Shown here piece by piece: positions 33,985 through 37,406 of a stretch of 64,000 bases of DNA. Source of the stretch: Parahaliea mediterranea (lineage in GTDB: Bacteria; Pseudomonadota; Gammaproteobacteria; Pseudomonadales; Halieaceae); NCBI RefSeq assembly GCF_017255185.1, contig NZ_JAFKCZ010000011.1, forward strand, positions 1 through 64,000, given 5' to 3'. Under the pieces are notes generated by a model that was not told the origin of the DNA, ran no database searches, and saw only the letters and a program-made list of their open reading frames with translations. A program made the translations under genes and the position numbers. Within the stretch, counting starts at the first letter, position 1; each line of letters begins with the position of its first letter.

Positions 33985-34118
33985 GGGCGTCTCCAGGAGA
34001 TGGACGGGGCGTACCAAACGGTGCATTAAACCAGAATGCACGGGCGACATAAAACGGCGGTGAGACTATACTAGGCGGTTTGAGGTCTGGGAACGCCCCG
34101 CCACCGGGGTCCACTGAC

Positions 34119-34454
34119 ATGAAAAAACCCGTGTCAAAAGCCGATTTGCGCGCCGACCTGGAACGGGCCACCGAAGCCTTTCTGCAGGAGGGCGGCCAGG
34201 TCGAGGCGATTCCCCGCGGCACCAGTGGCACCGACCCGCAATCCCCCCCCGACTACCTCACCCGCCGCCTGTTCGTCGAGCCCCGGACCACGCGCACCCT
34301 GGTGCCCGAGGTCGTGGCCACGATAGAGGAACGGCGCAAGGCCCTGTCAAAACGCAATACCAAGCCACGGCGCGGCCCCCTGTCCCGGCCCCGGCGCAAA
34401 ACCATCTACGACGATTTCGGCGAACCGCTGCGGCGGGTGTGGATAGAGGACTGA
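34119..34454 (+). CDS. Small FLxxGG-motif protein (SutA-like core)
   Basis: A 111-residue, strongly charged protein. The core ADLERATEAFLQEGGQVEAIPRG contains the E-x-FL-x-x-GG pattern also seen in SutA, a small RNA-polymerase-binding regulator of Pseudomonas (EEFLAKGGKV), and in the protein at 62198. The rest is basic and proline-rich (PRRGPLSRPRRKTIYDD) and may be disordered. The function is unknown; a link to RNA polymerase is only suggested by the shared motif. It stands alone, transcribed towards the terminator of the sortase pair. Confidence 0.6.
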   Translation: MKKPVSKADLRADLERATEAFLQEGGQVEAIPRGTSGTDPQSPPDYLTRRLFVEPRTTRTLVPEVVATIEERRKALSKRNTKPRRGPLSRPRRKTIYDDFGEPLRRVWIED

Positions 34455-34479: not shown

Positions 34480-34501
34480 AAAAAAGGGGCCCGCGGGCCC
34501 C
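34480..34501 (-). terminator. Rho-independent terminator of the sortase/substrate operon
   Basis: On the minus strand, a perfect GGGGCCCGCGGGCCCC stem-loop is followed by TTTTTT. It lies 28 bp after the stop of the sortase substrate gene. Confidence 0.85.
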
Positions 34502-34528
34502 TCGATCACTTGCCTTGAACTGCGGCGA

Positions 34529-35089
34529 TCAGTGCCGGCGCCGGCGCAAGGCGGTCAACAGGCCACCGAGGGACAGCAGCGCGCCACCACCCAGGCCGAA
34601 CAGGAACAGCGGGCTGGCGGTGGTGGGCATCGCCACCTCCTCCACTGCCACGATCTCGATGACCTCGATTTCCTCGGCCATCGACGGCTCTTCGTCGTAC
34701 ACCGCCAGGGCCCAGCGGTCGTTGGGCACGTAGACGTTCAACTCCTGGCCGCGCACCAGTTCGCTGGCCCGGTAGTTGCGCCCGGCGATCTTGGCCCGCC
34801 AGGTGCTGGGCACGTTGATGCTGTGCGAATCGCCCTTGGTACCGTCGGTGTGCAGGGGCCGGAAGGTGATCCGGTTGCCGCGCACGCGCTGCACTTCCAC
34901 CCTGGCCTGGGCGTACAGCTTGCCGTCCCGCTCGTACACGCCGGAACAGGTCTCCTCGATGTCCGGGTAATCCGCCTTGACGCTGGCGGACCACTCGATA
35001 TCGGCACAGGTGGGCGCCTGGGCGGCCGCCTGGCCACTCATACCGAGCGCCACAATCACTCCGGTTGCTATGGTCAACTGCTTGAGCAT
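34529..35089 (-). CDS. Predicted sortase substrate with MPTTAS-type C-terminal sorting signal
   Basis: A 186-residue exported protein. It has an N-terminal signal peptide (MLKQLTIATGVIVALGMSGQAAAQA) and a C-terminal tripartite signal: MPTTAS (154-159), a hydrophobic segment (161-181) and a terminal RRRRH. This organisation matches Gram-negative LPxTx-like sorting signals used by dedicated sortases. The gene lies 12 bp downstream of a sortase gene on the same strand, with a perfect AAGGAGG before its ATG. The mature part has no recognised domain but includes an acidic region before the signal. It is probably anchored to the envelope by the adjacent sortase. Confidence 0.72.
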   Translation of the reverse strand: MLKQLTIATGVIVALGMSGQAAAQAPTCADIEWSASVKADYPDIEETCSGVYERDGKLYAQARVEVQRVRGNRITFRPLHTDGTKGDSHSINVPSTWRAKIAGRNYRASELVRGQELNVYVPNDRWALAVYDEEPSMAEEIEVIEIVAVEEVAMPTTASPLFLFGLGGGALLSLGGLLTALRRRRH

Positions 35090-35101
35090 GTCAAATCCTC
35101 C

Positions 35102-35776
35102 TTAATTTCGATTGACATAGTTTTTGTCCAGCGTCGCGGTCACAACAAAACGCTGTGGCGCGTGCCCGACAAAGTAGAAGGGGTAACAGGTGACCAGCGT
35201 CAACGACTGGTGATCAGTGTCCGCCAGCACATGGGTGTCCTCGATCTCCACCACGCGGGCCCGCTCGACGGTAAAACGCTTGCGGCCGGCGAGGGTCTGC
35301 AGCTCCAGGCTGTCGCCCACGCTGATGTCCTTGAGCACCCGGAAGTAACCGTCGCGGTGGCCGGCAATGCCGATATTGCCGCCCTCGTGGGGATAGGCCA
35401 TGCCGTCGATAATGCCGGCGCCGCGGTCCATGGTCAGTTCGCTGTCGGTGGCGTAAACCGGCACCTCCAGGCCGAGGGCGGGAGCGCTGAGCACGCCCAG
35501 CACGGGGGGCAGCTCGGCCCGCAGGCTGGCCTGGTAGTCGGCGACGCGCCCCGGCGACCACAGGGTCATGTCCGGCGGCGGCAGGTGGTCGACGGCAATG
35601 GCGGACGGCGCTTCCGCCGCGCCGCCGCGCATCGATTCGAAAGTGGCGATGTCGCCGAGGCGCTGCACCTCGCCGAGAGCCAGCTGACTGAGAAAAAAGC
35701 CGGTCAGGACAACGCCCCCGGCGTAACTGAGGCACTCTCCTCCCCGCAGGAAGATGTCTCGCAGCGATCCCCTCAT
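35102..35776 (-). CDS. Gram-negative sortase (class GN/D-like transpeptidase)
   Basis: A 224-residue sortase with one N-terminal membrane span (about 15-35). The catalytic residues are visible: H140 in GIAGHRDGYF, C197 in TLVTCYPF and R209 in APQRFVV, the TLVTC signature. It would cleave a C-terminal sorting signal between T and the following residue and join the protein to an envelope acceptor. The next gene downstream, on the same strand and 12 bp away, is the apparent substrate. Marine gammaproteobacteria are known to have sortases with one or few dedicated targets. Confidence 0.85.
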   Translation of the reverse strand: MRGSLRDIFLRGGECLSYAGGVVLTGFFLSQLALGEVQRLGDIATFESMRGGAAEAPSAIAVDHLPPPDMTLWSPGRVADYQASLRAELPPVLGVLSAPALGLEVPVYATDSELTMDRGAGIIDGMAYPHEGGNIGIAGHRDGYFRVLKDISVGDSLELQTLAGRKRFTVERARVVEIEDTHVLADTDHQSLTLVTCYPFYFVGHAPQRFVVTATLDKNYVNRN

Positions 35777-36002: not shown

Positions 36003-37406
36003 ATGAGTAGCTCAATGATCGAACTGCATGAAAAATTCGAAGTGGACAGGCCCAGGGCCGAGGTCTTCGCCTACCTGCGGGACTTTCGTTCCGCCGCCGA
36101 GTGGGATCACACCACGCGCTCGGCGCGCAAGGCGACCCCGGGGCCGGTCGACGTCGGCAGCCGCTTCGACCTGGTGTGCAAGCTGCCGCTGGGCACGATC
36201 GATATCGAATACACTGTGACCCACCTGGAACCCGGCCGGGCGCTGACCCTGCAAGGGCAAAGCCGCCTGTTCGCGGTAACCGATGTCATCCACTTCAGCG
36301 ACACCGCCACCGGCTGTCACATCGACTACCGCGCCCACTTCGCGTTTCACGGCCCCCTGGCGGCCCTGGAACCCGCCATGCGAAACGGCATGGCGCGCAT
36401 GGGGCGCAAGGCGGTGGCGGGCATGCGGCGGGCACTGCAAGACGATTTTCCACCACCGGCCGCGGCGTCGGACACGCGCCGGGCGGACGCCTGGCTGGTG
36501 CCCGGCGTGGCCCTGTTCTCCAGCGCCGGGTACCGTCGCGGCCGCAAACGCTGGAATCCCGTGTCGGCCTGGATGGGCGACAAGCACGCGCTGATCACCG
36601 GCGCCAGCTCGGGACTCGGTTACGCCACCGCCCTGGAACTGGCGCGGACCGGGGCCGCCCTGACCCTGGTAATTCGCGACGAGGCCAAGGCCCAGCCACT
36701 GGTCGCGGCGCTGCGCCGCGAAACCGGCAATGAACACATTTATGTAGAACTGGCCGACCTGCGCCTGATGCGGGAGGTGGACGCCCTGGTACAGCGCTTG
36801 ACCCTCCGCGACAGGCCAATCGACATCCTGGTCAACAACGCGGGCGCGCTGTTCACGCAATGGGGCCAGACCGACGAGGGCCTGGAACAGAGCTTTGCCC
36901 TGCTGCTCCTGGCGCCCTACCGCCTGACCCGGGGACTCAAACCGCTGCTGCGGCAGGCCCCCGCTCCACGGGTGATCAACGTGGTGTCCGGGGGCATGTA
37001 CAGCCAGCGCCTGGAAGTCGGGCGACTGCAGGCGGGCTCCGACGGCTACAGCGGCGCCGAGACCTATGCCCGGGCCAAGCGCGCGCTGATGGTACTGACC
37101 GAACAGTGGGCCGCCGACTGGGCGCGAGAGGGTATCGTGGTCAACGCCATGCACCCCGGCTGGGCCGACACGCCCGGTGTCGCGAAGTCGCTACCGGGCT
37201 TTCGCAAACTCACCCGGCGCATCCTGCGCAGCCCCGACCAGGGCGCCGACACCATCGTGTGGCTGGCCCGCGCCACCGAGGCCGGCAAGGTCAGCGGGCA
37301 GCTGTTCCTCGACCGGGAACCGCGCCCCACCCACCTGCTCGCGCGCACCCAGGAGAGCCCCGGCGAGCGCGCGGCGCTGCGCGAATACATGGAGGCGGTA
37401 TTTTAA
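36003..37406 (+). CDS. SRPBCC - short-chain dehydrogenase fusion protein
   Basis: A 467-residue fusion. Residues about 1-150 form an SRPBCC (polyketide cyclase/dehydrase-like) ligand-binding domain. Residues about 190-460 form a short-chain dehydrogenase with the NAD(P) motif TGASSGLGYA, the NNAG motif, a catalytic serine in NVVSGGMY and YARAK as the YxxxK. The combination suggests the lipophilic substrate is held by the first domain and reduced or oxidised by the second, and the SDR is most like the DHRS12 type. Upstream ATG codons are close together; I kept 36003. Confidence 0.87.
   Translation: MSSSMIELHEKFEVDRPRAEVFAYLRDFRSAAEWDHTTRSARKATPGPVDVGSRFDLVCKLPLGTIDIEYTVTHLEPGRALTLQGQSRLFAVTDVIHFSDTATGCHIDYRAHFAFHGPLAALEPAMRNGMARMGRKAVAGMRRALQDDFPPPAAASDTRRADAWLVPGVALFSSAGYRRGRKRWNPVSAWMGDKHALITGASSGLGYATALELARTGAALTLVIRDEAKAQPLVAALRRETGNEHIYVELADLRLMREVDALVQRLTLRDRPIDILVNNAGALFTQWGQTDEGLEQSFALLLLAPYRLTRGLKPLLRQAPAPRVINVVSGGMYSQRLEVGRLQAGSDGYSGAETYARAKRALMVLTEQWAADWAREGIVVNAMHPGWADTPGVAKSLPGFRKLTRRILRSPDQGADTIVWLARATEAGKVSGQLFLDREPRPTHLLARTQESPGERAALREYMEAVF

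Follow-up and report, generated by a model that had tools for sequence, protein, structure and literature searches.

What a sortase does in a Gram-negative cell, and for which protein, is the question raised by two adjacent genes on the minus strand of the 64,000-nucleotide stretch of Parahaliea mediterranea DNA analysed here (the window). The initial annotation had recognised a sortase with His140, Cys197 (in TLVTC) and Arg209, a secreted protein 12 bp behind it that ends in MPTTAS, a membrane segment and RRRRH, and a strong terminator, and had proposed a two-gene system with one dedicated substrate. The features on which the present analysis builds are as follows.

35102..35776, minus strand: sortase gene (open reading frame), 224 residues, with an N-terminal membrane helix and a catalytic domain at about residues 92-216
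35357..35359, minus strand: codon of the catalytic His140, invariant in 22/22 aligned rows
35186..35188, minus strand: codon of the catalytic Cys197 (TLVTC), invariant in 22/22 aligned rows
35150..35152, minus strand: codon of the catalytic Arg209, invariant in 22/22 aligned rows
35097..35102, minus strand: AGGAGG ribosome-binding site of the substrate gene, seen in the sequence and overlapping the sortase stop codon
34529..35089, minus strand: substrate gene (open reading frame), 186 residues
35018..35089, minus strand: predicted signal peptide, residues 1-24, recognised by eye, without a lipobox and with a putative cleavage site after ...AAAQ and before A
34700..35008, minus strand: substrate core, residues 28-130, an OB-like beta barrel with Cys28 and Cys48 (structure model and alignment)
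34532..34630, minus strand: sorting signal, residues 154-186, made of MPTTAS, a membrane helix and RRRRH (sequence and tail profiles)
34484..34503, minus strand: intrinsic terminator hairpin (8 pairs, 6 of them G-C), followed by a T run

All the elements that had been described at this site were found, namely the sortase with its three catalytic residues, the 12 bp spacing between two genes on the same strand, the C-terminal tail of the second product, the signal peptide (by eye), and the hairpin with its T run at 34503-34484. As four terminator-like hairpins were counted in the 1.7 kb scanned, against 0.9 expected in shuffles, the position directly behind the operon weighs more than the hairpin match. 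The operon comprises the sortase and substrate genes only: the gene beyond the terminator (34080-34454) is convergent and the open reading frame before the sortase (36003-37406) is divergent. The convergent gene, on the plus strand, encodes a SutA-type RNA-polymerase-binding protein (Pfam PF20661, 46.4 bits, cut-off 29.3). A gene of this type adjoins the locus in relatives whether or not the substrate has a tail.

The first step is to establish which kind of sortase is encoded. The protein scores 83.4 bits with PF04203 (cut-off 26.6) and 68.1 bits with the general NCBIfam sortase model TIGR01076 (cut-off 39.35), and its structure model (mean pLDDT 87) has the sortase fold, with a best Foldseek E value of 4e-12 and matches at E<=0.001 to 138 PDB chains; the best 50 of them are all sortases. 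Among the curated classes, class D is the nearest, with 111.7 of the 140 bits required by the LPxTATN-specific SrtD model (NF058671) and 109 of the 165 bits required by the class D model NF033746, and the best sequence match in the PDB is 2ln7, titled B. anthracis SrtD. Lower values were obtained with the class GN model TIGR03784 (83.6 of 158.25 bits) and the class C model (57.8 of 160 bits), and the cut-offs of the class E and class F models were likewise missed. Membership in class GN is ruled out by the TIGR03784 cut-off and by the substrate, in which no match to the VIT/VWA target model TIGR03788 was detected at E<=1. From these sequence comparisons, the best reading is that of a dedicated, class-D-like sortase lineage that lies below all the class-specific NCBIfam cut-offs compared. 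Since both the class D and the LPxTATN-specific cut-offs are missed, the acceptor preference of the Bacillus class D enzymes is not simply transferable.

The substrate has no Pfam family at E<=1 and is, to our knowledge, unrelated to any known named sortase substrate. By eye, it is laid out as signal peptide, core, variable acidic linker and MPTTAS-helix-RRRRH tail. AlphaFold models the core with high confidence (block-mean pLDDT 93-98 over residues 31-120, and 87 over residues 121-130) as a strand barrel with short helices at its N-terminus, and Cys28 and Cys48, invariant in 35/35 alignment rows, form a pair that would suit a periplasmic disulfide. Fold comparison yielded no Foldseek match at E<=0.001; among the matches listed, the likenesses are weak (best Z 4.4, IF5A, MOP and MalK-TOBE-like entries ranking near the top), are to OB/TOBE/S1-like barrels among others, and carry no functional hint. 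Spread of the substrate via plasmids was rejected, as a plasmid search at the default limit returned no match. The tail does not reach the cut-off of the LPXTG anchor model TIGR01167 (13.6 of 15.9 bits), nor that of the LPxTATN signal model NF058670 (15 of 32 bits), which at E<=0.1 is matched by 21 of the 35 members of the substrate alignment. All 36 distinct tails collected in and outside the family by the pattern P.TA read [ML]PxTA[ST], and in the window tail and in 26 of these 36, pooled over both sources, the first residue is Met rather than Leu. This tail is probably what the adjoining sortase recognises.

The presence of class C (pilin) sortases among the top Foldseek rows brings up the notion that the enzyme polymerises its substrate in a pilin-like manner, with a lysine of each following subunit as the acceptor. 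The 35-row substrate alignment has no invariant or nearly invariant lysine, the class C score falls far short of its cut-off, and the single small substrate has no companion pilin alongside, so that polymerisation is hardly to be expected.

Whether the two genes belong together was addressed by comparing genomes. In all 21 named loci, which were fetched with the substrate profile, a sortase open reading frame lies directly upstream of the substrate; 20 are from Halieaceae or from gammaproteobacteria whose titles name no family, and one is from a Lysobacterales metagenome-assembled genome. The named host strains include Parahaliea, Halioglobus, Pseudohalioglobus and Seongchinamella, and three Parahaliea species provide the named sequences most similar to the substrate (71-73% identity). 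A sample of 140 family genomes was then searched with both profiles. The sortase scores fall into two groups, 30 matches of at least 258 bits in 29 genomes and a remainder not exceeding 86 bits, and each of the 30 lineage sortases is followed downstream by a substrate match, with 16-147 bases between the end of the first match and the start of the second. Chance linkage is ruled out by the 21/21 named loci and the 30/30 family sortases. The substrate profile matches 43 of the 140 genomes, 29 with the lineage sortase and 14 without (Fisher p for co-occurrence 9e-20, not corrected for descent). The C-terminus of substrates that directly adjoin a lineage sortase consists of [ML]PxTA[ST], then a helix, then basic residues. 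Among the 47 substrate matches that entered the comparison, there are 17 that do not lie nearest to a sortase: one is in genome G051, one in G005, and 15 are tail-less, none of these 15 having a lineage sortase alongside. Judged from the sequences, the pairing of this sortase with the tailed substrate is almost certainly real.

The claim of one sortase for one substrate holds, with corrections. It is supported by the constant linkage, by the lack of a third tail in the window's own genome and by the joint change of enzyme and tail, both taken up below, but three genomes depart from a strict one-to-one ratio. In G051 (contig 121, L016), two tandem substrate genes, both with MPTTAS tails, lie behind one sortase. 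G005 (contig 1, about 961900-963070, L179/L072) has a second substrate copy, unlinked to a sortase, with LPKTAS, a helix and RRQR in mid-protein. G012 contains two complete sortase-substrate pairs (contig 4, L182, and contig 5), of which the contig 4 pair is located away from the conserved locus. Locus L091 likewise has a tandem of two substrate genes following a single sortase. In the unlinked copy of G005, the tail is followed in frame by an apparent second signal peptide and more OB-like repeats; this copy is possibly a gene fusion.

The P. mediterranea genome (5.03 Mb, 45 contigs) contains a second sortase (contig 4, L002, 15862-19233), so that the description of a two-gene sortase system holds for the pair but has to be complemented by a class GN enzyme with its own target. 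The second enzyme scores 189.7 bits with TIGR03784 (cut-off 158.25) and follows a VWA target that ends in YPNTATTG, a helix and MRR; this target, read from a partial frame, scores 479.7 bits with TIGR03788, the cut-off being 551.65. The similarity of the YPNTAT tail to that of the window substrate, together with the unlinked LPKTAS copy of G005, could mean that the pair is not closed, the window sortase also serving unlinked proteins or sharing the class GN target. The own genome was therefore searched with three tail profiles (narrow, NF058670 and broad). With the narrow profile, which does not pick up even the class GN target, and with NF058670, the window tail is the best match and no tail of the same kind follows it. 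The broad profile gave two strong matches, the window tail and the class GN target, both of which were among its members. The genome search for further C-terminal signals that the initial annotation had proposed thus comes to these two tails, each adjoining its own sortase; no third [LM]PxTA-type tail was found by the three profiles, which a very different tail could escape. Given this result, and since the class GN target lies beside its own class GN enzyme, an open pair is very improbable, and the presence of several substrates in this genome was rejected. No PxTA tail was seen in the frames read for the weaker matches L084, L085 and L214-L218, and for L221-L225, judged by profile positions, four of the five match the helix part only, L224 matching positions 3-12. 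One of these weaker matches (L216, contig 4, about 117607) is a 294-residue frame with a PEP-CTERM-like tail, PLPSSLLLLMAGGLMLVMRRR, hinting at an additional C-terminal sorting system in the same genome.

Beyond the family the system thins out. In scans of the class and of the order, in which the best 7-9 candidates per genome were scored and weak relatives may have been missed, the substrate was matched in a single genome (G524) among the 369 of the class beyond the own genome, and the same genome is the only further one with a strong sortase (231 bits, the next being 100 bits). In the order scan, 17 of 390 genomes have a strong sortase (at least 226 bits), 12 of them belonging to the family. 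The statement that sortases are rare in Gram-negatives needs qualifying, as a sortase match of some kind, at E<=1e-12, turns up among the scored candidates of 53 of the 369 class genomes. For five of the six strong out-of-family sortases seen (G091, G524, G571, G743 and G560), the adjoining protein has a signal peptide, by eye, and an [LM]PxTA[ST] motif, while for the sixth (G063) no recognisable tailed substrate is present in the 14 kb around it. The G063 sortase gene (L176, contig 6, 23601-24362) is followed by a gene that is MgtC-like by reading. The Lysobacterales locus (L106) has an adjoining protein with a signal peptide, again by eye, and LPTTAT. In G524, the substrate lies upstream of its sortase and contains, by eye, two OB-like repeats; hhalign aligns it with the family profile at 93% probability, a value that may be lifted by the tail included in the aligned part.

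The tail-less copies offer a natural comparison. They amount to 15 loci in 14 family genomes, all 14 without the lineage sortase. At 13 of the 14 loci examined (the fifteenth, in G036, lies outside this comparison), the flanking genes of the window are shared, in varying subsets: a SutA-like gene, an alpha/beta hydrolase, an acyltransferase and a decarboxylase on one side, and a dehydrogenase, an epoxide-hydrolase-like gene, a thioesterase and a conserved unknown on the other, where SutA-like and alpha/beta hydrolase are Pfam assignments and the rest were assigned by reading. The copy in G013 has none of the shared neighbours. The idea that the tail-less copies are unrelated paralogs is unsupported for 13 of the 14 loci, given the common neighbours. 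One tail-less copy (G032, contig 1, about 4365819-4366342, L172) is split over two frames, by gene breakage or sequencing error.

On a neighbour-gene tree (IQ-TREE, 31 rows, among them 12 of the 15 tail-less loci), sortase and tail change state jointly at least three times; three changes are forced by starred branches, and three lie in the 5-95% range of the bootstrap trees. A single clade of tail-less loci is rejected (p-AU 1e-5) on this tree, which includes long branches (L171, L088) and poorly filled rows (L105, L172). Together with the common locus, these joint changes indicate that enzyme and tail come and go together while the domain stays. A lower-scoring sortase match, placed in the class GN range by its score with the sortase profile, is kept in 12 of the 14 tail-less genomes, so that the tail tracks the lineage sortase rather than sortases in general. 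As the out-of-family relatives found through the substrate (G091, G524 and L106) all have both tail and sortase, the sequences favour joint loss over joint gain.

The persistence of the tail-less orthologs indicates that the domain can presumably function unanchored. The sortase might act mainly as a release protease, which cuts the tail and lets water resolve the acyl-enzyme so that the domain becomes soluble in the periplasm, and the retention of a soluble form at the same locus in some genomes is in keeping with it. Loss of the tail alone would suffice for that outcome, but 29 of the 43 substrate-bearing family genomes have retained the pair; furthermore, sortases normally transpeptidate. 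Release as the main function is thus improbable.

The mechanism that we favour, with moderate confidence and by comparison of sequences, is one in which a dedicated class-D-like sortase cleaves MPTT/AS and joins the OB-like periplasmic domain to an amine of the envelope, most likely that of peptidoglycan meso-diaminopimelic acid (m-DAP). The substrate would be exported by Sec and take up an OB-like fold in the periplasm, with a disulfide between Cys28 and Cys48, and its C-terminal helix and RRRRH would keep it attached to the inner membrane. On the pattern of the homologous class D enzymes, Cys197, with His140 and Arg209, would attack the Thr157-Ala158 bond, and the acyl group would then be passed to an amine, resolving the acyl-enzyme. 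If this amine is, as seems likeliest, the m-DAP side chain in lipid II or peptidoglycan, the domain would end up covalently bound to the cell wall on its periplasmic side. Gram-negative peptidoglycan contains the same m-DAP as that of Bacillus, which makes it the leading acceptor candidate. In Bacillus, class D SrtC cuts LPNTA between T and A with m-Dpm as the nucleophile (PMC3297441), and YhcS of B. subtilis anchors LPDTS/LPDTA proteins (PMC3222306); according to the former review, sortase C and its homologues are confined to spore formers. By this analogy, cleavage of MPTTAS between T and A is highly probable, and for m-DAP as the acceptor we regard the case as evenly balanced.

An acceptor of another kind has to be weighed at this point, namely an amine of a lipid or of LPS (e.g. 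phosphoethanolamine), which would make the product a lipid-anchored or surface protein. Rhombosortase, an analogous C-terminal sorting enzyme of Gram-negatives, leaves a glycerophosphoethanolamine-containing group on VesB (PMC6219818), and this product keeps a lipid acceptor in play for the window sortase. Rhombosortase is, however, a rhomboid-type protease and no sortase, the sortases of LPxTA signals use cell-wall amines (PMC3297441), and no export machinery is found among the nameable neighbours, although linkage would be unnecessary. A lipid or LPS acceptor is therefore rather unlikely, and attachment to m-DAP is retained as the working proposal. The reading in full, in which a class-D-like lineage distinct from class GN, present in Halieaceae and some other gammaproteobacteria, covalently attaches one small OB-like protein to m-DAP, with enzyme and tail lost or acquired together on several occasions and the domain persisting at its locus, is put forward tentatively, as somewhat more apt to need revision than to stand in all its parts.

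L,D-transpeptidases are an enzymatic route of protein attachment to murein. If the proposal is true, attachment to m-DAP by a sortase would be a second such route, and anchored and free forms of one protein would exist as natural alternatives. With two genes, a small substrate, named hosts and tail-less orthologs as controls, the system makes the acceptor question directly testable, and it offers a compact case for learning what sortases, best known from Gram-positive walls, do in Gram-negatives, where the role of dedicated sortases is called unknown in a 2023 paper (PMC10581121).

The comparison with known systems shows which part of the arrangement is new. Class GN sortases (TIGR03784) with a single adjacent target have been described as dedicated (PMC3237569), and their pairs with VIT/VWA targets (TIGR03788) resemble the window pair in being Gram-negative and in having the sortase gene beside a single target; they differ from it in that the window substrate is small, of another kind and without a TIGR03788 match, and in that the window sortase is distributed independently in the family. 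Class D (the Bacillus SrtC/SrtD, whose names vary by paper, and YhcS; NF033746, NF058671) provides the nearest models and the 2ln7 match, and the TA[ST] end of the motif resembles LPNTA among the LPNTA/LPDTS-type signals; unlike these, the window sortase lies below both cut-offs, its host is Gram-negative, Met takes the place of Leu and the substrate belongs to another family. The rhombosortase/GlyGly-CTERM and exosortase/PEP-CTERM systems share with the window a C-terminal motif, helix and basic tail in Gram-negatives, but the enzymes are unrelated and the window tail reads [ML]PxTAS. Close linkage is also known there, in that enzyme and target are at most one gene apart in 16 of the 21 genomes with a single GlyGly-CTERM target (PMC3237569). 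We found no paper on the window sortase-substrate system in the open-licence PMC literature. Thus, dedicated Gram-negative sortases beside one target were already known, and what is new is the sortase lineage and its substrate family.
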